Part shown: positions 2 through 8,476 of the stretch, piece after piece
How positions within the stretch are numbered: the stretch's first letter is position 1
Layout: the number at the start of each line of letters is the position of its first letter
Source: Actinomycetota bacterium
GTDB taxonomy: Bacteria; Acidobacteriota; Blastocatellia; Chloracidobacteriales; Chloracidobacteriaceae
DNA length: 13,310 bases
Assembly: GCA_013298335.1 (NCBI GenBank)
Contig: JAAFHI010000019.1
Coordinates: forward strand, 1 to 13,310
Reading direction: 5' to 3'
Position numbers and translations under genes: made by a program
Notes under the pieces: model-generated
What the model was told of the DNA's origin: nothing
The model's database searches: none
The model's input: only the letters and a program-made list of their open reading frames with translations

Positions 2-103
2 AAATGCCAGGACCGCGATCTGGGCAACTGGCTGACCGAAAATTACGCCGTCCCCGAACTTGAAGAAACGAATATTGAGTCTTGGGAGTCCGGGGAGTCT
101 TGA
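2..103 (+). CDS. C-terminal tail of an upstream gene (partial)
   Basis: The frame starting at base 2 is open from the window edge to a TGA at 101-103. It reads KCQDRDLGNWLTENYAVPEL, then a short acidic tail. The first 20 or so residues look like ordinary protein, with Trp, Tyr and charged residues. The last 10 or so (from residue 26, IESWESGES) are translated from the start of the 9-bp array. So the array appears to have invaded or grown at the 3' end of this gene and now supplies its stop codon. The family cannot be recognised from 33 residues. The alternative is that the frame is open by chance; the preceding sequence would settle this. Confidence 0.45.
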   Translation, partial: KCQDRDLGNWLTENYAVPELEETNIESWESGES

Positions 104-200
104 GAGTCTTGGGAGTCTTGAGAGTCTTGGGAGTCTTGGGAGTCTTGGGAGTCTTGGGAGTCTTGGGAGTCTTGGGAGTCTTGGGAGTCTTGGGAGTCCC
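84..200. repeat. 13-unit 9-bp tandem array (GGGAGTCTT)
   Basis: Thirteen consecutive 9-bp units run without an indel. Units 4 and 6-12 are exactly GGGAGTCTT, units 3 and 5 are GAGAGTCTT, and units 1, 2 and 13 carry edge variants (a partial GAGTCTT precedes at 77-83). The period is divisible by three, so the array stays open as repeating Leu-Gly-Ser-type tripeptides on + and Asp-Ser-Gln on -. That is a side effect, not evidence of coding. GGG every 9 bp could also form a G-quadruplex with 6-nt loops. Identical central units and decayed edges are typical of slippage-driven growth from the middle. Confidence 0.95.
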
Positions 201-230
201 GACCAGTTCCGATCTTCTTCCATTTTCCCC

Positions 231-283
231 GACTCCCGAGACGCCCCAGACCCACAAGACTCCCAAGACTCCCAAGACTCACG
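231..283. repeat. Inverted, decayed copy of the 9-bp array
   Basis: About six 9-bp units in reverse-complement orientation: GACTCCCGA, GACGCCCCA, GACCCACAA, GACTCCCAA, GACTCCCAA and GACTCACG. The right half (256-280) is an almost exact reverse complement of the array at 84-200, separated from it by about 30 bp (201-230). In RNA the two would fold into a long hairpin that ends 7 nt before the ATG at 291. The left units are more diverged than the right ones. Confidence 0.85.
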
Positions 284-290
284 TATCAAG

Positions 291-710
291 ATGAGAATTT
301 TCGTCTGGGTAGACATCAAGCGCTGCGAGATCGGCTCCCCCGCCCTCTTTCACTGCTTCTTTTCGACCGTCGCCTACCGCCTCGAACGCGACGACTGGGG
401 TGGCCGCTTCCCGAAAATCATGCGCGGGTTCTACAAGGGACGGCTGATACCGGGCGACGCCGACGCGGCCATCGCGGAACTCGCCGTCATCCGGGAAGAA
501 CTCGAACGCCTTCCAGTAAACGAACTGGTCTGGGATTTCGACGATCTCGACCGTCAGCCGCCGTGGGAGGCGGGCATCCGGGAAACGCTCGCGAGCGCGG
601 CGGAATGCTTCGTGACGCCGAACGGCGATTCCTTACTGGATGTGCTTCACGATGCCTTCGTCCTGAGCCGCACCGACGGCAGCGACGCGCGGATCGTCAG
701 GCAGAACTAG
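291..710 (+). CDS. Imm70-like immunity protein
   Basis: A 139-residue soluble protein with no signal peptide or membrane segment. It resembles the Imm70 family of polymorphic-toxin immunity proteins. The family-like blocks are EIGSPALFHCFFSTVAYRLE (residues 13-32), WGGRFP (36-41), a helical stretch AIAELAVIREELERLP, VWDFDDLDRQPPW (80-92) and FVTPNGDSL (107-115). Such proteins are expected to bind and neutralise a cognate toxin domain in the cytoplasm, but no toxin gene lies in this window. The ATG at 291 was chosen because homology-like sequence begins there. The frame is also open upstream through the 9-bp array to a TTG at 60, but that extension is only repeat translation. No Shine-Dalgarno is visible (the leader is ACGTATCAAG). 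The stop is followed at once by the G-rich heptamer array. The family call comes from recall of conserved blocks, not a search. Confidence 0.75.
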   Translation: MRIFVWVDIKRCEIGSPALFHCFFSTVAYRLERDDWGGRFPKIMRGFYKGRLIPGDADAAIAELAVIREELERLPVNELVWDFDDLDRQPPWEAGIRETLASAAECFVTPNGDSLLDVLHDAFVLSRTDGSDARIVRQN

Positions 711-759
711 GATGGGGGATGGGGGATGGGGGATGGGGGATGGGGGATGGGGGATGGGG
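711..759. repeat. G-rich heptamer array (GGGGGAT), strong G-quadruplex candidate
   Basis: Six runs of five G at 714-718, 721-725, 728-732, 735-739, 742-746 and 749-753, each separated by AT, then GGGG at 756-759. The array begins at the base after the immunity gene's TAG (708-710). Two-nucleotide loops between G5 tracts make this a strong quadruplex candidate in DNA and in the mRNA 3' end. The 91 bp after it (760-850) hold a T8 run (790-797) and two copies of TCCCGGTCT, with no gene. Confidence 0.95.
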
Positions 760-850
760 AGCGTTCCATTCCGGTCTTTCCCGTCAAGTTTTTTTTCATC
801 CGGTGAATCTTCTATCCCTCCCGGTCTCCTTGTCTCCCGGTCTTCTTCAC

Positions 851-878
851 CATCCCCCATGCCCTATCCCCCATCCCC
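851..878. repeat. Inverted copy of the G-rich heptamer array
   Basis: Reads CATCCCCCATGCCCTATCCC and continues CCATCCCC, the reverse complement of the heptamers at 711-759 with slight decay. It ends 2 bp before the stop codon of the LOG gene (881-883 on the - strand). Read from that gene's direction, it places G-rich heptamers right after the stop, mirroring the arrangement on the opposite gene. The two arms could form a large cruciform or RNA hairpin with a loop of about 91 nt. Confidence 0.85.
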
Positions 879-880
879 TG

Positions 881-1708
881 CTAATCATTGAACGTCGGCT
901 CTTCGCTGGTTTCGCCGTAGATCGTGAGCAACTGGTCGCGCAGATACTCGAACGCTGCTTCCGGCGTGTCGGCGAACTGAAACAGGCCCAGGTCTTCCTT
1001 CTCGATCATTCCCCATTTCACCAGCGCGTCGAAGTTCAGAATCTCCCGCCAGTAGCTCTCGCCGTAGATGACGATCGGAATCCGGCGGCGGAGTTTCTTG
1101 GTCTGGAGCAGCGTCAGAACTTCGAGCAGTTCGTCGAGCGTGCCGAATCCGCCGGGGAAAATCACCAGCGCCTTCGCCGGATAGACCAGCCAGAATTTCC
1201 GCAGAAAGAAGTAGTGGAACTCGAAACAGAGTTCCGGCGAGATGTACGGGTTGGGATACTGCTCGAACGGCAGGCTGATGTTCATCCCGACCGTCTTGCC
1301 CCCCGCGAGGGACGCGCCCCGGTTCGCTGCCTCCATGATGCCCGGACCGCCGCCCGAACAGATCAGGAACCGGCGCTGCGTGGTCGGCAGACTCATCGCC
1401 CATTCAGTCAGTTTCCGGGAAAGTTCGACCGCCTCGTCGTAAAACCGCGCCAGTTCGGGGTTTCCGCCCGCTTCGCCGGGGGTTTCGTGGCCGGCGTATT
1501 CGGGCGGATATTTGCCGTCGGGACGCGGATGGATGCGGGCCGAGCCGAAAAAGACGATCGTGTCGCGGACGTTGTGCAGCCGCAGCCGGTTTTCGGGTTC
1601 GAGATATTCGCTCTGGATGCGGATCACGCGGGCCGAGCGGCTGTTGAGAAAATCGAGGTTATGGTACGCCTTCGCGGGTTTGGCGAGGCGGTCTGGGGTA
1701 TCCGACAT
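881..1708 (-). CDS. LOG-family (TIGR00730-like) nucleotide phosphoribohydrolase
   Basis: A 275-residue Rossmann-fold protein of the lysine-decarboxylase-like / LOG family. Characterised members hydrolyse cytokinin riboside 5'-monophosphates or AMP to free base and ribose 5-phosphate. Both signature motifs are intact: SGGGPGIMEAANRGA (residues 118-132) and PGGFGTLDE (185-193). An Arg-Lys pair in FFLRKFWL (about 170) matches the family's substrate-site arginine. It is not a decarboxylase. I chose the ATG at 1708 because family members typically begin shortly before the KAYHNLDFL-type block and GGAG lies 11 nt upstream. In-frame ATGs at 1777 and 1765 would add 23 or 19 residues; the former overlaps the upstream mutase stop as ATGCGTCGTGA. 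It is probably cotranscribed with the mutase. Substrate is unknown from sequence. Confidence 0.9.
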   Translation of the reverse strand: MSDTPDRLAKPAKAYHNLDFLNSRSARVIRIQSEYLEPENRLRLHNVRDTIVFFGSARIHPRPDGKYPPEYAGHETPGEAGGNPELARFYDEAVELSRKLTEWAMSLPTTQRRFLICSGGGPGIMEAANRGASLAGGKTVGMNISLPFEQYPNPYISPELCFEFHYFFLRKFWLVYPAKALVIFPGGFGTLDELLEVLTLLQTKKLRRRIPIVIYGESYWREILNFDALVKWGMIEKEDLGLFQFADTPEAAFEYLRDQLLTIYGETSEEPTFND

Positions 1709-1766
1709 GTGAAAGAAGACTCCGGGTTGAAAGAGTGCGGCAACGTTCCCGTCGCCGGACGCCATC

Positions 1767-2072
1767 TCACGACGCATTCACGGTCGTGTCGTCATCCGTT
1801 TCCGACGTTCCGAGCATCCGGTGCTCCAGTCGGCGCGACTCCTGAATGATGGCGGTAAAAAGACGGTGCAGCGCCTCGTCGTCGAGCGGTCCCCGGTTGG
1901 CGGCGGCCACCTTGGCCAGCACTTCGGCCTCGCGGGCGGGAATCCGGATCGGCAGTCCGGTCTTCTGCTTGACACGGGCGACCTCGCCCACGAGCACGGC
2001 GCGGCGGTTGAGCAGGGCGACGAGTTGTTCATCGAGCGCGTCGATCTGACGGCGGCAATCATCGAGATTCAT
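1767..2072 (-). CDS. AroQ-class chorismate mutase
   Basis: A 101-residue, all-helical, monofunctional chorismate mutase that converts chorismate to prephenate at the Phe/Tyr branch point, in the cytoplasm. Aligned by eye to the E. coli P-protein mutase domain, the active-site set is present: Arg7, Arg24, Lys35, Arg47, Glu48 and Ser79. Glu83 stands at the Gln88 position, a substitution found in many AroQ enzymes. Landmark stretches are CRRQIDALDEQLVALLNRR, VARVKQKTG and FTAIIQESRRLEHR. The start at 2072 (MNLDDCRRQ) fits the family. The frame is open to 2186, but those 38 extra residues overlap the divergent promoter and look non-coding. The Shine-Dalgarno is poor. A TACACT hexamer 8 nt upstream of the ATG could be a -10 giving a near-leaderless transcript, though no -35 is seen. 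The LOG gene follows. Confidence 0.9.
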   Translation of the reverse strand: MNLDDCRRQIDALDEQLVALLNRRAVLVGEVARVKQKTGLPIRIPAREAEVLAKVAAANRGPLDDEALHRLFTAIIQESRRLEHRMLGTSETDDDTTVNAS

Positions 2073-2140
2073 GGCGGGCGAGTGTAGCGCACTTGGGCGA
2101 CCGACGTGGATTTTCACGAAAACTTCGACAGAACCGGACG

Positions 2141-2170
2141 TTGACACTGTACGTTTACCGCCCATATAGT
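2141..2170 (+). promoter_or_regulatory. sigma70-type promoter for the CsgG-like gene
   Basis: A perfect -35 TTGACA (2141-2146) and a near-consensus -10 TATAGT (2165-2170) lie 18 bp apart. Transcription would begin near 2177, leaving a leader of about 75 nt before the ATG at 2252. This is the clearest promoter in the window. It also lies in the divergent spacer with the chorismate mutase. Confidence 0.8.
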
Positions 2171-2189
2171 GCGATACGGTACACAATTT

Positions 2190-2204
2190 TCGAAGAATCT
2201 TCGA
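2190..2204. promoter_or_regulatory. 15-bp palindrome in the early leader (possible operator)
   Basis: TCGAAGAATCTTCGA is a perfect odd palindrome centred on base 2197, roughly 14-28 nt downstream of the predicted transcription start. It could be an operator for a dimeric repressor, or an RNA hairpin (TCGAA/TTCGA with a 5-nt loop). The cognate regulator is unknown. Confidence 0.35.
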
Positions 2205-2251
2205 TTCTGTCTATCTGAAAAGACTTTTTTCAACAAGTGAGGAAAAACATT

Positions 2252-3241
2252 ATGCGGCCTGTGACTCGAATGCTCCTTTGCGCGGCGGCGGTCGGGGGAA
2301 TGCTCTTCGGCATGTCCGACGCGACCTTTGCCCAGCGGAAATCCGGCGGTACCACCCCGGCCTCCGACGCGCCGAAAGACGCCAAGCCCAAGAAGGGCGG
2401 AAAAATCACGGTGGCGGTCATTCCGCAGGACAATCAGCGGAGCTGGACCAAGGACATCATGGTCGCCGAACTCGAAACCGCCCTCGCCGGCGGCCGTTTC
2501 AACATCCTTTCGCGCGATTCGCTCAATTCGGTCATCTCCGAGCAGAAACTCGCCAACTCCGACCTCGCCGATCCGTCGGCGGCCACCAGCGTCGGCAAAC
2601 TTCTCTCCGCGCAGTACGTCATCGTCGCCAAGGCCGTCTCCATCGACGTCAAGGAAAGCAGCATCGGCTTTGGCGGCATCGGCACCAAAGAAAAGAAGAT
2701 GACCGTCAAGGTCAACATGCAGCTCATCAACGCCGAAACCGGCGCGCTCATCAAGTCGGAAAACTACGACGGCAACGACAAGACCAGCTCGACGCAGGCC
2801 GGCAGCTTCGGCAACAACGCCGACGCCCCCGGACAGGAATCCTTCACCAAGATGATGTCCGGTTTCGCCAGGCGCTTCGCGGAAGTCGTCAGCCTCCAGG
2901 TGCCGATTGAAACCACCGTCGCGCTCGTCAAGGACGGCCAGGTCATCATCCGCACCGGTTCCGCCGAAGGCGTCCAGCCGGGCGTCGATTTTGAAGTCAT
3001 TCTCGAAGGCGAACCGATTCGCGACGCCGACGGGACGATTCTCGATCGCGTCGTGAGCAAGGTGGCCGTCATCCGCGCCTCCAAGGTCAATGAAAAAGTG
3101 ACCTACTGCGACATCATCCAGACCTACGACCCGAATTCGAAGTCCGCCGATGCGGCCCCGAACGCCGGTCGTATCCAGACCGACTTCACAGTGCGTCAGG
3201 TGCCGAAAGTCGCGCCGCCCGTCGTGAAGAAGGGCAAGTAA
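2252..3241 (+). CDS. CsgG/HfaB-like exported protein
   Basis: A 329-residue protein. A cleavable signal peptide is clear (residues 1-27, cleavage probably TFA-QR). A Ser/Pro/Lys-rich linker precedes a CsgG-like alpha/beta domain (about 50-210). That domain has the family pattern KITVAVIPQ at its first strand, then RFNILSRDSLNSVISEQKL and a strand ADPSAATSVGKLLSAQYVIV. The C-terminal part (about 217-290) resembles the small beta domain that follows TolB-like folds in FlgT-type proteins, with IIRTGSAEGVQPGVDFEVI. CsgG itself is an outer-membrane lipoprotein pore for curli, but no lipobox is seen here, so this is more likely a periplasmic or envelope-associated relative. The ATG at 2252 was chosen over a GTG at 2237 because GAGG (2239-2242) sits 9 nt upstream and the signal peptide fits. 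It probably works with the next gene. Exact role unknown. Confidence 0.7.
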   Translation: MRPVTRMLLCAAAVGGMLFGMSDATFAQRKSGGTTPASDAPKDAKPKKGGKITVAVIPQDNQRSWTKDIMVAELETALAGGRFNILSRDSLNSVISEQKLANSDLADPSAATSVGKLLSAQYVIVAKAVSIDVKESSIGFGGIGTKEKKMTVKVNMQLINAETGALIKSENYDGNDKTSSTQAGSFGNNADAPGQESFTKMMSGFARRFAEVVSLQVPIETTVALVKDGQVIIRTGSAEGVQPGVDFEVILEGEPIRDADGTILDRVVSKVAVIRASKVNEKVTYCDIIQTYDPNSKSADAAPNAGRIQTDFTVRQVPKVAPPVVKKGK

Positions 3242-3245
3242 TACA

Positions 3246-3312
3246 GTTGAGAATTGAGAATTGAGATTTGAGATTTCGGAACACTCACCGGAATTCTCAA
3301 TTCTCGATTTCT
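3246..3312. repeat. Inverted heptamer array (GAGAATT), probable terminator stem
   Basis: The stretch begins 5 nt after the CsgG-like stop. The forward arm is TTGAGAATTGAGAATT followed by GAGATTTGAGATTTC; the reverse arm is AATTCTCAATTCTC then GATTTCTC. The 14-mer at 3249-3262 is perfectly complementary to 3292-3305, with a 29-nt loop. It is not followed by a T-run, so simple intrinsic termination is unsure. Confidence 0.85.
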
Positions 3313-3419
3313 CCGAACCCTGGCGAATTTTGTGGTGAATGTGACGGACCGGCCCGGAACCCCGCACATCGGGTGTCCGAATGAAGCCCCGGATATTGAA
3401 AGTTCGGAGCATCTGCCGA

Positions 3420-3459
3420 AATTCTCAATTCTCCACTCTCAATTCTCAATTCGTTTTTT
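3420..3459. repeat. Second inverted copy of the GAGAATT array, with T-tract
   Basis: The 14-mer at 3292-3305 recurs exactly at 3420-3433, and TCTCAATTCTCAATTC follows at 3437-3452, then G and TTTTTT (3454-3459). Either inverted copy could pair with the forward arm at 3249-3262, so two alternative folds exist. The 107 bp between the copies (3313-3419) hold no gene or clear promoter that I can see. Confidence 0.8.
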
Positions 3460-3521
3460 CTCCCCGCCCCACATCACTCCGCGCGGGCGGATCGGTTCCA
3501 AACCAAAACAAGGAGCGTAAC

Positions 3522-4808
3522 GTGAAACGCAGTATTCAATCGCTTGCCATATTGTGCCTGTTCTTCGTCGGCCTCGGCGCCGCCGCGCAGGCCGAAACCC
3601 TTAAAAAACGCTACACATTCGATTACAACAGCGCGACCCGGTCGGCGTCCGAAGCCAAGGCCAAGAAGAAGGCCCGCAAACAGTTTCTGGCCGACTTCCT
3701 CGAAACCAAGTTCTCCAAGGAAATCGTGACCAGCCTCGCCGAGGAAATCGACATCGCGCTCGATCCGCCGGAAGATTTCCTCGTGAACTTCGAGGTCAAG
3801 ACCACCAAGTACAACGACGACGAAACCAAGATCATTCTCACGGTCGAAGGCGAAGTGGACCTGCCCGCGATGGTCTCGGCACTCGTCCAGAACAAGGTTC
3901 TCAGCTTTGGCGAACGTCCGCCGAAGGTGATGTTCATTCCGTCGAGCCGCTTCGACAATCCGAAGGCGGCCAAGACCATGCGCGCGCTTGTCTACGAGAA
4001 GATGAAGCAGGCGGGTCTCCAGTCGGTCGCCTTCGAAGGCGTCACCGAAATCACCTCGGTCCAGATCAAGACCTCGCCCAATTCGATCAAGATTCTCGCC
4101 AAGCAGGCCCTTCAGTACGGCGCGGACTACCTCATCTACATCGACCCGGAAACCGACAACCGCCCGGCGTCGGTCGGCGGATACATCTGCGACGCGAACT
4201 TCATCTACACCGTGTTGCGTCCGAACGACAACCGCATCCTCGGCGAAGGCGTCATCAGCCAGCGCGGCAGCGCCAACTCGCAGATGGTGGCCTTCGACAA
4301 AACGCTTGACGAAGCCGCGCCGACCCTCATCTCGCAGGCGGTCGGTCAGCTTTACCAGTCGATCTTCTCCGACAGCGACGTTATCTACGACAAGAAGCAG
4401 TTGAAGAACCAGATCGCCCTGTCGGTCTTCTTCAAGACCAGCCCCGAGCAGACCCAGGCGATCATCAAGGCGCTTCAGGCGCAGGGCGCGTATGTCACGC
4501 TCGGCGTCGGCGCGGGCTCGGACCGCCTCTCGCTCGAAACCACGATGGATGTGCTCGACCTCTACAACTTCTTCAACGACACGACCTTCACGACCGACAA
4601 GGGCACGAAGTTCAAGGCCCCGTCCGTCGGGTACGGCGAGAACACGCTGGACGTCGAAATCGTCGCGCCGACCGCCGCGCCGCGGAAACCGCGTCCGTCG
4701 TCGGCCCCCGCCCGACGATCGAACCCCGGTCCCTCGGCGGGCACCAAGCCCAAAGGGATCGTCTGTAATCTGAAAGGCTCGCTGCGCGCGCCGGGTTCGG
4801 TTCAGTAA
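3522..4808 (+). CDS. Exported protein of unknown function, partner of the CsgG-like gene
   Basis: A 428-residue protein. The GTG start at 3522 is supported by AGGAG (3511-3515), 6 nt upstream, and by the signal peptide it creates (residues 1-24, cleavage AQA-ET). The mature N-terminus is very basic (SASEAKAKKKARKQFLADFL), like the Ala/Lys-rich helix that opens LPP20/FlgT-type periplasmic proteins. Residues 130-290 look like a TolB/CsgG-type alpha/beta fold: a strand KVMFIPSSRF, a helix, then ADYLIYIDPE and GEGVISQRGS. About 295-365 form a further small domain. The last 45 residues are a basic Pro/Ser/Ala-rich tail, probably disordered. There is no lipobox and no membrane segment beyond the signal. 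The gene lies 280 bp downstream of the CsgG-like gene on the same strand. Structural resemblance to FlgT/TolB is by eye; no flagellar genes are present. Confidence 0.6.
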   Translation: MKRSIQSLAILCLFFVGLGAAAQAETLKKRYTFDYNSATRSASEAKAKKKARKQFLADFLETKFSKEIVTSLAEEIDIALDPPEDFLVNFEVKTTKYNDDETKIILTVEGEVDLPAMVSALVQNKVLSFGERPPKVMFIPSSRFDNPKAAKTMRALVYEKMKQAGLQSVAFEGVTEITSVQIKTSPNSIKILAKQALQYGADYLIYIDPETDNRPASVGGYICDANFIYTVLRPNDNRILGEGVISQRGSANSQMVAFDKTLDEAAPTLISQAVGQLYQSIFSDSDVIYDKKQLKNQIALSVFFKTSPEQTQAIIKALQAQGAYVTLGVGAGSDRLSLETTMDVLDLYNFFNDTTFTTDKGTKFKAPSVGYGENTLDVEIVAPTAAPRKPRPSSAPARRSNPGPSAGTKPKGIVCNLKGSLRAPGSVQ

Positions 4809-4820
4809 CCGGTAAGGCAA

Positions 4821-4867
4821 GGGGTCAGAAATCAGGGGTCGGGGATCAGGTTTTACAACTGATTCCC
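4821..4867 (+). terminator. GGGATCA-type repeat arm with probable terminator hairpin
   Basis: About 12 nt after the stop, imperfect heptamers GGGGTCAGAAATCAGGGGTC then GGGGATCAGG (4821-4850) form the forward arm of the fourth inverted array. Its end, GGGGATCAG (4841-4849), can pair with CTGATTCCC (4859-4867) around a 9-nt loop with one bulged T. The T-rich stretch CTCTTTCTTTTTTC follows. This would terminate the gene ending at 4808. Confidence 0.55.
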
Positions 4868-4913
4868 GGCCCTCTTTCTTTTTTCCCGCACGCCCCTTAA
4901 TCTGTGGCTTCGG

Positions 4914-4953
4914 CTCCCTGATCCCTGATTCCTGTTTCCCGATCCTTTTTTTT
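4914..4953. repeat. Inverted GGGATCA-type arm ending in T8
   Basis: CTCCCTGATCCCTGATTCCT followed by GTTTCCCGATCC (4914-4945) is the imperfect reverse complement of 4821-4850 and runs into TTTTTTTT (4946-4953). The T-run ends only 5 nt before the ATG of the reductase gene. If it acts as a terminator for upstream transcripts, that gene would need its own, possibly leaderless, start. Confidence 0.65.
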
Positions 4954-4958
4954 CTCCT

Positions 4959-5816
4959 ATGAAAGTTCTCATTACCGGGGCTGGCGGACTGCTCGGACGC
5001 TGCGTCATCGCCGAATTCGCCCGCCACCACTCGGTGGTTGACCTCGTCCGCGCCGATCTCGACATCTCCGACGCGGCGGCCATCGTGGAGATTTTCGACC
5101 GCGAAAAATCCGATGTCGTCATCAATTGCGCCGCCATGACCAACGTGGACGCCTGCGAAACCGACCGGGACGGCGCGTTCCGCGACAACGCCGACAGCCC
5201 CGGACGGCTGGCGAAGGCCTGTTCGAACGCCCGCGCGCACCTGATTCACGTCAGTACCGATTACATTTTCGACGGAACGAAGGACGGCCCCTACGCCGTG
5301 GACGACACCCCGAACCCGATTTCGGTCTACGGCGCGTCAAAACTCGCGGGCGAAGAAGCCATCCGGAGCGTTTCCCGTCACCACGCCATCGTCCGGGTCG
5401 CCGGACTGTTCGGCAGCGGCGGAAAGAATTTCGCGAGCAAGGCCTACGACCTGCTCACCACGCCCGGCACCGTCAAGGGCATCTCCGACAACCACATCCT
5501 GCCGAGCTACGCCGCGGATGTGGCGTTCTACCTTCGGATGGTCGCGGAAAACCGCGTCGGCGGCACGATCCACGCCGTCAACGCCGGACCGCCATGCAGT
5601 TGGCTCGATTTTGCGACTCACGCCAAATCGCTTCTGGGCGACCGCGCCAAGGCGGAAATCGTGCCGGTGACGGAAGCCGAACTGAACCGTCCGGCGAAAC
5701 GTCCGATGCGGTCGGTCCTCGCGCACACCGCCGACCCGGCGCGCAACCTCCCCGCCCTGCGCGACTGGCGCGAGGCCCTCGCGGAATTTCTTGGAACGCC
5801 TCAGACAAAAAACTGA
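4959..5816 (+). CDS. rfbD: dTDP-4-dehydrorhamnose reductase (RmlD-like)
   Basis: A 285-residue extended short-chain dehydrogenase/reductase of the RmlD family, which reduces dTDP-4-dehydro-L-rhamnose to dTDP-L-rhamnose with NAD(P)H in the cytoplasm. The nucleotide-binding motif GAGGLLG (7-13) is intact. So are HVSTDYIFDGT (97-107) and the catalytic Thr100, Tyr124 and Lys128 in VYGASKLAGE, which lie exactly four residues earlier than T104/Y128/K132 of the Salmonella enzyme. Length matches the family. rmlA, rmlB and rmlC are absent from the window, so the call rests on motifs; a related NDP-sugar reductase is possible. No Shine-Dalgarno is seen: the ATG follows a pyrimidine leader TTTTTTTTCTCCT. 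The TGA stop lies inside the left arm of the inverted terminator downstream. Confidence 0.85.
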   Translation: MKVLITGAGGLLGRCVIAEFARHHSVVDLVRADLDISDAAAIVEIFDREKSDVVINCAAMTNVDACETDRDGAFRDNADSPGRLAKACSNARAHLIHVSTDYIFDGTKDGPYAVDDTPNPISVYGASKLAGEEAIRSVSRHHAIVRVAGLFGSGGKNFASKAYDLLTTPGTVKGISDNHILPSYAADVAFYLRMVAENRVGGTIHAVNAGPPCSWLDFATHAKSLLGDRAKAEIVPVTEAELNRPAKRPMRSVLAHTADPARNLPALRDWREALAEFLGTPQTKN

Positions 5817-5910
5817 ACGCAAAGACACGAAGGCACAAAGACACAAAGGCGTTGAAACGTCTTCCATTCTTTGTGCCTTTGCGTCTTTGTGTCTTTGCGT
5901 TCAGTTTTTT
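5807..5910. terminator. Bidirectional terminator from a long inverted 8-bp repeat
   Basis: Left arm 5807-5828 and right arm 5889-5910 are perfect 22-bp reverse complements. Inner arms continue with related units such as ACACGAAG, GCACAAAG and ACACAAAG against their complements, around a loop near 5850-5866. The outer ends are A6 (5807-5812) and a T8 run (5904-5911), so the hairpin plus T-tract works in both directions. It terminates the reductase (+) and the D-amino-acid oxidase (-). The arm contains the reductase's TGA (5814-5816). Confidence 0.85.
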
Positions 5911-6863
5911 TAGCCGAACAACGCGACAACGTCGTTCGCGCAGCCCCAGCACAAGGTAAAACCCGCGCCGCCGTGGCCGTAGTTGTGAATCACCGTCGCG
6001 CCGTCAGGGAACGTCTCGCGCTCCAGCCGGACGGTCGTCCGACCGGGGCGCAGTCCGACGCGGGTCTCGATGACCGTCGCGTCCGCGAGCGCGGGTTCGA
6101 GTTCGCGGCACTTCCGCAGAATTTCATTTGAAAGTTCGGGATCGGGCGTCCGGTTCCAGTCGTTCGGGACGGCGACGCCGCCGAGGATAATGTCGTCCGT
6201 ACGCGGAATCGTATACGCGATGCGGCGCGGTCCCTCGTCGTCGGTCAGCGCCCGCCGGATGCCCGGATTCGTCACCCGGACGACCTGTCCGCGAATCGGA
6301 AACACCTCTTCATCATTGAGAAGATCGCGCGCGCCGAGTCCGGTGCAGTTGACGACGATCCGGTCGGGCGCGGTCAGTTCGGCGAGGGATTGAACCTCCC
6401 GCTGAAGAATCGTTCCGCCGAGCGATGAAAACCGTTCCACCAGAAACGGCAGGTAGGCGGGCGTCTCGACAATCGGCACGTCCGCCGCCCACCCCATTTC
6501 GTAATCGGGATGAAGTTCATCGGTCCGCGCCCGCCGCACGCCGGTCGAGACCGCCGTTTCCCAAAACGGACGCGGCGCTTCGTGATCGTACAACTCGATG
6601 AACGTCGTCATCGTCACGCCGGGCACGCCCGCCTGATGCTGACGGACGAGTTCGTCGAACGTCGCTTTCGACCACGCGAGAACGCGGTCGCGCGGCTCGG
6701 CGCGAAACGGAAACCAGAGCGCGGCGGCCACATTTGAAGTGGTTTCGGGGGGCAGTTCGCGGGCGACGATTTCGACCGAAAACCCGGCTTCAATCAACCG
6801 GATCGCCGATGTCAGCCCGGAGACGCCGCACCCGACGACGGTGACGAAAGATGTGTAACTCAT
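5910..6863 (-). CDS. D-amino-acid oxidase (FAD-dependent)
   Basis: A 317-residue flavoenzyme of the DAO family, which oxidises D-amino acids to 2-oxo acids with release of ammonia and H2O2. The N-terminal dinucleotide-binding loop is VVGCGVSG (9-16). VVNCTGLGARDL (170-181) matches the second FAD contact. Tyr218 in AYTIPR and Arg272 in GLRPGR fit the substrate-carboxylate-binding residues. The C-terminal flavin signature NYGHGGAGFTLCWGCA (294-309) is complete. No signal peptide is seen, so it is probably cytoplasmic, perhaps for growth on peptidoglycan-derived D-amino acids (inference). The ATG at 6863 was preferred over a TTG at 6884. A weak promoter, TTGACT (6895-6900) with CATCAT (6871-6876, 18-bp spacer), would give an almost leaderless mRNA. 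A glycine/sarcosine oxidase-like specificity cannot be excluded. Confidence 0.9.
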   Translation of the reverse strand: MSYTSFVTVVGCGVSGLTSAIRLIEAGFSVEIVARELPPETTSNVAAALWFPFRAEPRDRVLAWSKATFDELVRQHQAGVPGVTMTTFIELYDHEAPRPFWETAVSTGVRRARTDELHPDYEMGWAADVPIVETPAYLPFLVERFSSLGGTILQREVQSLAELTAPDRIVVNCTGLGARDLLNDEEVFPIRGQVVRVTNPGIRRALTDDEGPRRIAYTIPRTDDIILGGVAVPNDWNRTPDPELSNEILRKCRELEPALADATVIETRVGLRPGRTTVRLERETFPDGATVIHNYGHGGAGFTLCWGCANDVVALFG

Positions 6864-6917
6864 GGTCCGAATGATGACGAGCAAATACTTCGAAAGTCAA
6901 AGTTGCGTCTCCATCCC

Positions 6918-7417: not shown

Positions 7418-7690
7418 ACTGGTCGCGGAAAATACCAAATTGGTCGGGCGCACCATGCGACCAGTCGGGGAGTTCACGCGACTGGTCAAGCCAGATTCGT
7501 CATTGGTCGCCTGGATTCGGTGACCAGTCGGGAAGTTCACGCGACTGGTCGGGCGGTTTTTTTTACTGGTCGGACGGATTCGGTGACCGGTCGGACAGTT
7601 CACGCGACCAGTCGGGCGGAATTTTTCATCAGTCGGACTGTTTTGGTGACTGGTCGGACTGTTCACGCGACCAGTCGAAGTGAAATTACG
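7418..7690. repeat. Array of thirteen 21-bp units with GAC-YR-GTC dyads
   Basis: Units start at 7418 and every 21 bp after that to 7670, with no indel. Each begins A-[CT]-[CT]-[AG]-GTC, giving GACTGGTC, GACCAGTC or GACCGGTC cores; the first two are reverse complements of each other. From 7439 on, units group in threes (63 bp, four times): the middle unit of each group ends GTTCACGCG, and the first ends GGTG or similar. Neighbouring opposite cores can form hairpins. 21 bp equals two helical turns. The array fills most of the divergent spacer 7374-7801; the remainder (7691-7801) shows a T8 run (7701-7708) but no convincing promoter. Confidence 0.9.
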
Positions 7691-7801
7691 GAAACTTGTG
7701 TTTTTTTTCGAGTTGAAAGTCCGTTCGGCGATGGAACTTTGCCAAGGCGGCGGAGTGAAAGCGCAGTGTTGTCACCATTTCACTCTCGCAGGTATTTCAC
7801 C

Positions 7802-8476
7802 ATGAACCGCTTTGAATTGACCCGTTACGAATCCATGATCCGCGTCAGCGAATTCGGAACCAGACATTCCACCGATTTCCCCGCCGGGACGCTCGGCGAA
7901 GAACTTTTTCAAAATCTCTCCCGCATCGTCGAACACCTCCGTGCGTACGCCGCCGAAAAGAATTCGCGGCAGGGCGACCGCCGGTTGACCGCCACCCGCA
8001 AAAGCGCCGCCAAGGAAAAACTCTACGAGGAAATGCAGGTCGTCAGCCGGACGGCGCGGATTCTCGGCCTTGAGGATCGCGGCATCGAGCGGAAGTTTCT
8101 CCTGCCCTACGGCGTCGGCGCGCGCCCGCTGGTCGGCCTCGCCCGCGGCTTCGCGAAGGACGCCGAACCGCTCGCGGAACTGTTCATCCGCCACGCCCTT
8201 CCGTCGGATTTCATCGCCCGCCTCAACCGTCTCGCCGACGAACTGGAAACGGCCATCGGCGCACGCGGCGAAGCGACCGAAACGGCGGTCGAAAACAACG
8301 CCACGATTGACAGTCTGATCGAGGACGGCATGACGACGCTCAAAAAACTCGACGTGATCGTCCGCAACACCTATCGCGAACATCCGCTTGCACTCGACGC
8401 CTGGGAACGGGCCAACCACCGCCCGCGAGCCGCCGCCGCGAGCGCGTCCCCGGCAGCGCCATTGCCCACTGCCTAG
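7802..8476 (+). CDS. Conserved helical protein of unknown function
   Basis: A 224-residue soluble protein predicted to be almost all helical, with no signal peptide. It opens with MNRFELTRYESMIRVSEFGT. It continues with a helix ELFQNLSRIVEHLRAYAAE (34-52), a basic segment RLTATRKSAAKEKLYEEMQV (61-80) and a block FLLPYGVGARPLVGLARGFA (99-118). A long helix IARLNRLADELETAIGAR follows near 138-155. The tail is Ala/Pro-rich and low complexity. From memory, proteins of this layout are common in Acidobacteriota, often in several copies, but no function is known to me. The ATG at 7802 was chosen because the frame upstream is only repeat translation; AGG about 10 nt upstream is a weak Shine-Dalgarno. 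An intrinsic terminator follows. Confidence 0.75.
   Translation: MNRFELTRYESMIRVSEFGTRHSTDFPAGTLGEELFQNLSRIVEHLRAYAAEKNSRQGDRRLTATRKSAAKEKLYEEMQVVSRTARILGLEDRGIERKFLLPYGVGARPLVGLARGFAKDAEPLAELFIRHALPSDFIARLNRLADELETAIGARGEATETAVENNATIDSLIEDGMTTLKKLDVIVRNTYREHPLALDAWERANHRPRAAAASASPAAPLPTA

Follow-up and report, generated by a model that had tools for sequence, protein, structure and literature searches.

Inverted pairs of short tandem arrays behind stop codons in a Chloracidobacterium-family genome and its relatives: proposed REPIN-like dispersed palindromes with many unit families

The first 13,310 nucleotides of contig JAAFHI010000019.1 (the whole stretch analysed, hereafter the window) come from a 5.11-Mb draft genome of 1093 contigs, which belongs to the Chloracidobacterium family of the Acidobacteriota and is labelled G000 below. 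Five spacers in this window each hold a tandem array of 7-9-bp units followed by an inverted copy of the same array. The units of such palindromes recur at unrelated loci, the elements lie at stop codons, and the two arms of one element co-vary. At near-gapless gene junctions some palindromes have been gained whole, and the families found at one and the same junction differ by species. The genes and palindrome arms concerned are as follows, with the method behind each entry in brackets (TRF, Tandem Repeats Finder).

77..198, plus strand: arm 1, 9-bp array (GGGAGTCTT), 13.6 copies (TRF); the upstream plus-strand frame ends within this arm, its stop at 101-103 by eye
231..282, minus strand: arm 2, inverted 9-bp array, 8 nt upstream of the Imm70 ATG (TRF, alignment)
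291..710, plus strand: Immunity protein 70 (Imm70) gene, PF15601, between the first two palindromes (Pfam, scan begun at 297)
710..759, plus strand: arm 1, 7-bp array GGGGGAT, 7 perfect copies, starting at the Imm70 stop (TRF)
850..878, minus strand: arm 2, inverted 7-bp array; 2 nt separate its end from the stop codon of the LOG-type gene that converges on it (TRF)
881-1777, minus strand: LOG/lysine-decarboxylase-type gene (Pfam)
ending at 3241, plus strand: CsgG/LpoB-like gene (Pfam)
3246..3275, plus strand: arm 1, 7-bp array GAGAATT, 5 nt past the stop of the CsgG/LpoB-like gene (TRF)
3291..3312, minus strand: inverted GAGAATT array, first of two copies (alignment)
3420..3452, minus strand: inverted GAGAATT array, second of two copies, then a T run (TRF)
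3522-4808, plus strand: gene without a Pfam match
4821..4850, plus strand: arm 1, degenerate GGGATCA-like array, 12 nt past the stop of gene 3522-4808 (weak, equalled by 1/500 shuffles)
4914..4945, minus strand: arm 2, inverted GGGATCA-like array, then eight T, then the RmlD-type gene (TRF)
4959-5816, plus strand: RmlD-type gene, stop codon 5814-5816 (Pfam)
5807..5855, plus strand: arm 1, 8-bp array (AAAGRCAC type), which includes the stop of the RmlD-type gene (TRF, fold)
5868..5910, minus strand: arm 2, inverted 8-bp array, extending to the stop codon of the FAD oxidoreductase gene, which is convergent (TRF, fold)
5910-6884, minus strand: FAD oxidoreductase gene (Pfam)

An earlier sequence-only reading of this DNA had described the five spacers as array plus inverted copy, and this was borne out by TRF, alignment and folding: a 7-9-bp array and its inverted copy were present in 5/5 spacers, near the coordinates it gave. 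TRF reported arrays at 77-198 (9-mer, 13.6 copies) and 231-282, at 710-759 (7-mer, 7.1 copies) and 850-878, and at 3247-3273, 3420-3452, 4915-4945, 5820-5850 and 5868-5900. Each spacer was then split, its right part reverse-complemented and aligned locally to its left part, and the score compared with those of 500 dinucleotide shuffles of both. Spacer 77-296 scored 75 against a best shuffle of 32, the two splits of 3242-3470 gave 46 and 48 against 27 and 29, and 5814-5912 gave 50 against 33; at 711-880 the margin is narrow (49 against 45) because of low complexity. Four of the five spacers therefore beat every shuffle, and the pair at 4821-4945 is weak by this test, the score of spacer 4809-4958 (25) being equalled by 1/500 shuffles (best 25). 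The unit of this weak pair is found again at other loci in the genome. RNA folding z-scores were -9.8 (60-300), -4.4 (700-890), -5.4 (3235-3465), -3.4 (4815-4955) and -11.9 (5800-5912). A scan against Rfam at E values up to 0.1 gave no match at gathering score; below threshold, six microRNA-model matches fell on three palindromes and matches to two bacterial small RNA models lay elsewhere. The earlier view that one plan is shared by many units, and that it goes beyond tandem slippage alone, was right.

The same reading had called the units unrelated. They do differ from one another, but they are not private to their spacers, since four of the five (the 9-mer, GAGAATT, the GGGATCA-like unit and the octamer) recur elsewhere in the genome. 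The octamer pattern of 5807-5910 has 95 matches in the genome, spread over some 44 loci by eye count, against 0 for its reversed control. Of 297 sampled Acidobacteriota genomes, 18 contain triples of GGGWTCA (GGGATCA/GGGTTCA), the overlapping matches numbering 1201 in G003, 762 in G001 and 78 in G000; none was found in the three g3 genomes of the same family within that sample, and the triples appear again in the distant family f30. The distribution of these units across the Acidobacteriota is patchy. The reversed control, ACTWGGG triples, has several matches in genomes that lack the real pattern (G104, G156 and G203 among others), so further heptad families are probably present in other parts of the phylum. 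The octamer hairpin had no match in a plasmid collection (BLAST, low-complexity filter on). The octamer array was found in 76 stretches of IMG/VR, with an inverted partner at 23/83 sites and the AAAG arm first in 23/23; nothing about other phyla is deduced from these stretches.

How common is this arrangement beyond the window? Stretches were sampled from G000 itself (324 kb), from G001 (210 kb) and G003 (265 kb), which represent two other genera of the family, and from G002 (80 kb), of a fourth genus. Within G000, the window and eight further contigs (18 elements) were picked for octamer matches and the other 52 contigs by number (15 elements, 8 of which belong to three recurring unit families by eye). 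TRF arrays of period 6-11 were counted at a score of at least 36 and at least 2.8 copies, overlapping arrays being merged. An inverted partner lay within 250 bp of 125/244 arrays across the four genera, against 0/244 for a mirror partner (reversed, not complemented, at the same score and within 250 bp). By sample, the paired arrays numbered 25/40 in unselected G000, 30/39 in selected G000, 32/57 in G001 and 38/104 in G003, with 0/4 in the 80 kb of G002.

A parallel survey, limited to spacers of 60 bp or more, found the excess over shuffled sequence that had been proposed as a check on the sequence-only reading: an inverted repeat scoring at least 30 was present in 90/356 spacers and in 0/356 after letter shuffling (dinucleotide shuffles having been kept for the window spacers). 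Such strong inverted repeats occurred in 30/102 spacers of unselected G000, 25/101 of G001, 35/116 of G003 and 0/37 of G002. Both kinds are therefore present in these genomes: 36 of the 90 are clearly periodic, and the rest are inverted repeats of the ordinary sort, without a period. A second dispersed inverted repeat, non-periodic and of the GTTCAGAGT...CCCGCTTTAGCGGG type, was seen at L037, L061 and L109 in G000 and at L102 and L105 in G003, and is apparently common to these two genera of the family.

Merging of paired arrays in the window's family gave 73 elements, from which the 4821 pair is absent because of the TRF counting thresholds. Fifty-five lie between tandem genes, 11 between convergent and 2 between divergent genes, and 5 at contig edges (counted in the 73 and left out of the tandem test, n=55); 0 lie wholly within a called gene. 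The distance from the stop codon to arm 1 has a median of 4 nt and is at most 25 nt at 70/80 gene ends, some arms overlapping the stop; with the octamer-chosen contigs removed, 48/56 fall within 25 nt, with a median of 3. Among the 55 tandem elements, 47 are closer to the upstream stop, 7 to the downstream start and 1 is a tie (p = 2e-8), and 33/55 are no more than 5 nt from the stop (overlapping ones counted), against 8.7 for even placement over the rest of the spacer. This closeness belongs to the periodic kind, whose median distance to the stop is 2.5 nt (n=40) against 50 nt for non-periodic inverted repeats of the same samples (n=44; p = 1e-7). Divergent spacers are under-used, with 2/68 elements against 61/319 spacers (p = 8e-5), or 2/51 elements when the chosen contigs are removed (p = 0.002); the spacer background comes from unselected contigs only. 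The G-rich arm comes first in 64/73 elements, with 6 opposite and 3 even, and in 53/55 without the octamer-chosen contigs. Because a palindrome reads alike on both strands, this polarity is a property of the element and not of the direction of transcription.

A second bacterial family was scored for position and polarity too, using the sequence that surrounds known GGGATCA arrays in G248, G352 and G359 (25 elements); comparable stretches of G195 gave 0 elements. The G-rich arm is first in 21/25 and the median stop distance is again 4 nt, with 11 tandem, 9 convergent and 5 divergent elements, two of the five divergent ones adjoining a tRNA missed by the gene caller (by eye). Of 29 stop distances, 24 lie between -10 and 25 and four below -40; the latter would put the element inside a called gene and are perhaps wrong gene calls.

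Arms are 25-35 nt long in 53/80 gene-end entries, about four unit copies each, and enclose loops of 3-232 nt. Both arms can be read in 18 octamer elements. Corresponding units of the two arms carry the same base at the free fifth position in 31/49 cases, whereas shuffling the arms among elements gives a mean of 0.414 (p = 0.001). Such agreement fits a pairing constraint and arm-to-arm copying alike. Loop and arms together are common to 9/10 copies of one G248 family (by eye; the copies are BLAST hits, which favours shared loops). The loops of the octamer family in G000 differ, which is neutral between copying-in and growth in place. The 9-mer arm folds on itself, and the arms of most other families are not hairpins alone. 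One ACACGAAGG copy in G248 (L185, G248:C2:8700-9330) has arm 1 and its loop apparently translated as a lysine-rich tail, with a stop codon directly before arm 2 (both by eye).

Orthologous junctions were compared in genus g109, represented by nine species. At a convergent junction between cupredoxin and GDPD genes, followed in eight species, the two stops are 0-4 nt apart in G195, G364 and G367. The same junction carries an AATAACC palindrome starting in the TAA stop in G352, a AACAAAGAACG-type palindrome in G248, a AACACGAAG palindrome in G365, a perfect non-periodic 20-bp hairpin in G366 and a two-copy GTGAGAA array in G289; these inserts reach from stop to stop, at or a few nt off (borders other than in G352 by eye). 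Between infB and rbfA, the infB stop and the TTG start of rbfA are 1 nt apart in G364-G367 (by eye) and G248 has a short spacer, and in G352 an AGTTGAA palindrome of about 190 bp occupies the site, its first unit overlapping the infB stop. A third junction, where LigD converges on what we take to be a receptor-like gene, has 3 nt between stops in G363, an AGTTGAA palindrome directly abutting the LigD stop in G352, and a different short palindrome in G289. Elsewhere in this genus, at spacer A of G248 (L129 6100-6400), one GGGCTTG arm lies in frame within a gene start (by eye), at the end of a signal-peptide-like region, and is missing in some sister species.

Taken together, these results are best read as REPIN-like (in the sense of repetitive extragenic palindromic, or REP, doublets), stop-codon-anchored, dispersed miniature palindromes whose arms are mostly 7-9-bp tandem arrays, the purine- or G-rich arm first and the pyrimidine-rich arm second; we give this reading a probability of about one half. 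The dispersed families, the shared G248 loops and the different families at one junction suggest that arrays are copied in from elsewhere, the source being the same genome and the target the gap behind a stop codon, and microhomology at or near that codon may provide the entry point. The seeds described below and the agreement between arms point to template switching and slippage at the target, whereby copying across the hairpin would create the second arm or keep it matched to the first. The hairpin might then be tolerated, or favoured at convergent ends as a two-way 3'-end structure that blocks or processes transcripts; retention is thus perhaps in part as 3'-end hairpins. A more specific version, tentative and lying well below an even chance, has mobile palindromes homing to stop codons, with near-gapless convergent junctions as hot spots for successive families and a copying pathway other than that of the REP-associated tyrosine transposases (RAYTs); here genes would stay intact because the element end renews the stop codon.

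The evidence that weighs against the REPIN-like reading is set out here with the rivals it serves. Gene borders come mostly from a simple gene caller, 119/244 arrays have no inverted partner, and the orthologous sites were picked because one species carried an array, which shows gains and not their frequency. Nothing consistent in the way of a target-site duplication was seen at the compared sites, TAG flanks on both sides at infB-rbfA being the only possible duplication (by eye). Two sites look like growth in place: the GGATCAG array at spacer B of G248 faces a single GGATCAG in two sister species, and the AGTTGAA array at site E6 of G352 faces one AAGTTGAAAGTT seed in G364. Could the elements then have arisen where they stand, a gene-end quasi-palindrome (two abutting stops, for example) being lengthened by slippage and copied to the other arm by template switching? 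The two seeds, the inclusion of the stop codon in the first array unit at the cupredoxin/GDPD junction, the likeness of arms within elements, and reports that template switching homogenises inverted-repeat arms (PMC8604942, PMC7202029) all favour it. The sequence-only reading had proposed template switching plus slippage, and these could indeed keep arms alike and fit the two seed-like sites; they leave unexplained the recurrence of one unit across separate genera and dozens of unrelated loci, the loops shared by 9/10 G248 copies (by eye, BLAST-picked), and the different families at one stop-codon junction in sister species. As the whole explanation, growth in place is unlikely, though it keeps appreciable weight. 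Movement by RAYTs fares much worse. The elements share with REPINs an inverted pair, a variable spacer and many extragenic copies, they touch stop codons, and the transposase family PF01797 was matched in 22/27 examined genomes, with 5 to 13 matches in each of G000, G001, G003, G248 and G159. However, no array lies within 600 bp of any of the 21 Y1 transposase genes examined, array-bearing G359 has no PF01797 match, G352 has one, and G006, from a genus whose sampled member lacks a paired array, has 11. No GTAG or CGTC end tag was noticed by eye in the element sequences viewed (tags were not scored by program), and most arms are not hairpins alone. A RAYT mover is thus not supported by Y1 neighbourhoods or PF01797 distribution, and we regard it as very unlikely. 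Chance or an assembly artefact might be suspected in a window from a 1093-contig draft; this is refuted by the shuffled-spacer control and by like structures in independent assemblies from other genera and families, which leaves it next to no probability.

Selection for RNA hairpins, the other cause put forward in the sequence-only reading, is compatible with either origin, the elements then being selected bidirectional intrinsic terminators or 3'-end hairpins with repeats as a cheap long stem. Folds and gene-end positions do place a stable hairpin behind the stop codon. The under-use of divergent spacers in the window's family, the hairpins acquired at near-gapless convergent junctions (one of them non-periodic), and the A and T runs on the two sides of the 5807-5910 hairpin also speak for it, as do T runs after arm 2 in G000 (9/38 gene ends against 3.4% of 325 random spacer positions). 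Yet the U tract appears to be missing from most elements: a T-rich tail (6/8 T) follows the stem at 9/38, 3/17 and 4/23 gene ends, with a null of 3 to 10%, and on the opposite strand at 3/22, 3/16 and 1/17. Five of the 25 second-family elements are divergent, and divergent spacer C, beside a presumably S4-type gene, holds palindromes in 7/8 species, of at least three unit families (by eye). The loop at spacer A of G248 already contains an ordinary terminator-like hairpin (by eye), a terminator scan of the window found 16 sites against 16.6 in shuffles (loops of 3-8 only), and an element sits between infB and rbfA, which weighs against a strong terminator role. That strong role is doubtful; selection as a 3'-end hairpin is plausible at some gene ends and, as a general account, falls short of probable. 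Paired binding sites for a DNA-bending or RNA-binding regulator would suit units of 7-9 bp, some four copies per arm and paired opposite orientation, and comparable proposals name IHF/HU for Geobacter (PMC2700814) and S1, Csp and Csr for TAACTGA repeats (PMC4679880). Such a regulator is improbable, given that single genomes hold many units with no relation to each other and that the units differ between orthologous sites.

Heptad-type arrays are known from several phyla, with their function and mechanism of birth still unsettled (PMC4679880, PMC4692102, PMC2700814). The basic plan found here is already known from the paired arrays of Geobacter and Xanthomonas, an unexplained kind of which the present elements are a variant. 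Geobacter metallireducens has three classes of three to five tandem 7-9-mers, mostly in opposite-strand pairs at variable distance and dispersed in one genome as here; one pair of class 3 separates proB from proA, a position taken in G. sulfurreducens by a different multicopy sequence (PMC2700814). These arrays, from a different phylum, were read as protein-binding sites, those of a global regulator, and stop anchoring, arm co-variation, polarity and empty sites do not appear in the available sections of that account (PMC2700814). The GGGAATC heptamers of Xanthomonas form 70 and 75 inverted pairs in two genomes, with four units preferred and a function described as not known; most are found no more than 50 nt past a stop when on the coding strand, or ahead of a start when on the non-coding one. 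In some cases they overlap the stop codon itself, and divergent spacers are under-represented (PMC4692102). The present elements follow this plan of 7-bp-type array, inverted partner and G-rich strand just behind stops. Xanthomonas, and Nostoc with its GGGGA(C/T)T heptameric repeats, are described with one unit family per genome, read as quadruplex-forming, unlike the many units here (PMC4692102). Since several units (GAGAATT, AAAGRCAC, AGTTGAA, AATAACC) have no GGG, although others do, G-quadruplexes cannot be the general explanation and were rejected as such.

The short tandemly repeated repetitive (STRR) sequences of cyanobacteria are likewise intergenic heptamer arrays, and the likeness to heptanucleotide repeats of other bacteria noted in the sequence-only reading was well taken. 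Intergenic heptamer arrays span distant lineages, another case being the TAACTGA repeats of Beggiatoaceae, which are direct, lie mostly just upstream of start codons and include a single inverted case (PMC4679880). REPs are small stem-loops, of which those with GTAG are tied to RAYT genes and those with CGTC are not (PMC3116915, PMC3733652), and their ends often supply a stop codon (PMC3733652). REPINs resemble the present elements as extragenic, high-copy inverted pairs with a spacer (PMC3116915); the present arms differ in being tandem arrays, with no tag seen by eye and no RAYT link. A looser likeness is offered by the A/T microsatellites of Fusarium mitochondria, which are palindromic, optional between species and proposed to be mobile, but have very short mononucleotide arms (PMC7218506). 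Among the top open-licence literature matches, no stop-codon-directed repeats of this kind and none from Acidobacteriota were found beyond the papers cited here. No case met in that literature unites the four traits seen here, namely numerous families in a single genome, a purine-first polarity that holds across families, arms that co-vary, and stop-codon junctions with empty sites; together they appear to be new.

Other features of the window deserve mention. The Imm70 gene is flanked by two array palindromes (77-710), with the upstream frame extending into the 9-mer array, and the protein of gene 3522-4808 has two named relatives in a search of genome contigs. An array of 63-bp period at 7459-7677, with alternating sub-units GACCAGTCGG and CGACTGGTC and itself partly palindromic, precedes an open reading frame at 7700-8476 that has no Pfam match. 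At 8614-8593 on the minus strand, behind a large outer-membrane receptor gene, lies a canonical GC-rich terminator with eight T; the genome thus also has an ordinary terminator, a contrast to the array palindromes that counts against their being kept as 3'-end hairpins.

What do these elements mean for the genomes that carry them? With many families per genome, and with empty sites alongside filled ones tied to stop codons in related species, the origin of such repeats can be approached through what one sister species has gained and another has not. The way in which bacteria come by 3'-end hairpins at junctions without room for a terminator is touched on as well, and an old unexplained type of bacterial repeat becomes directly testable.

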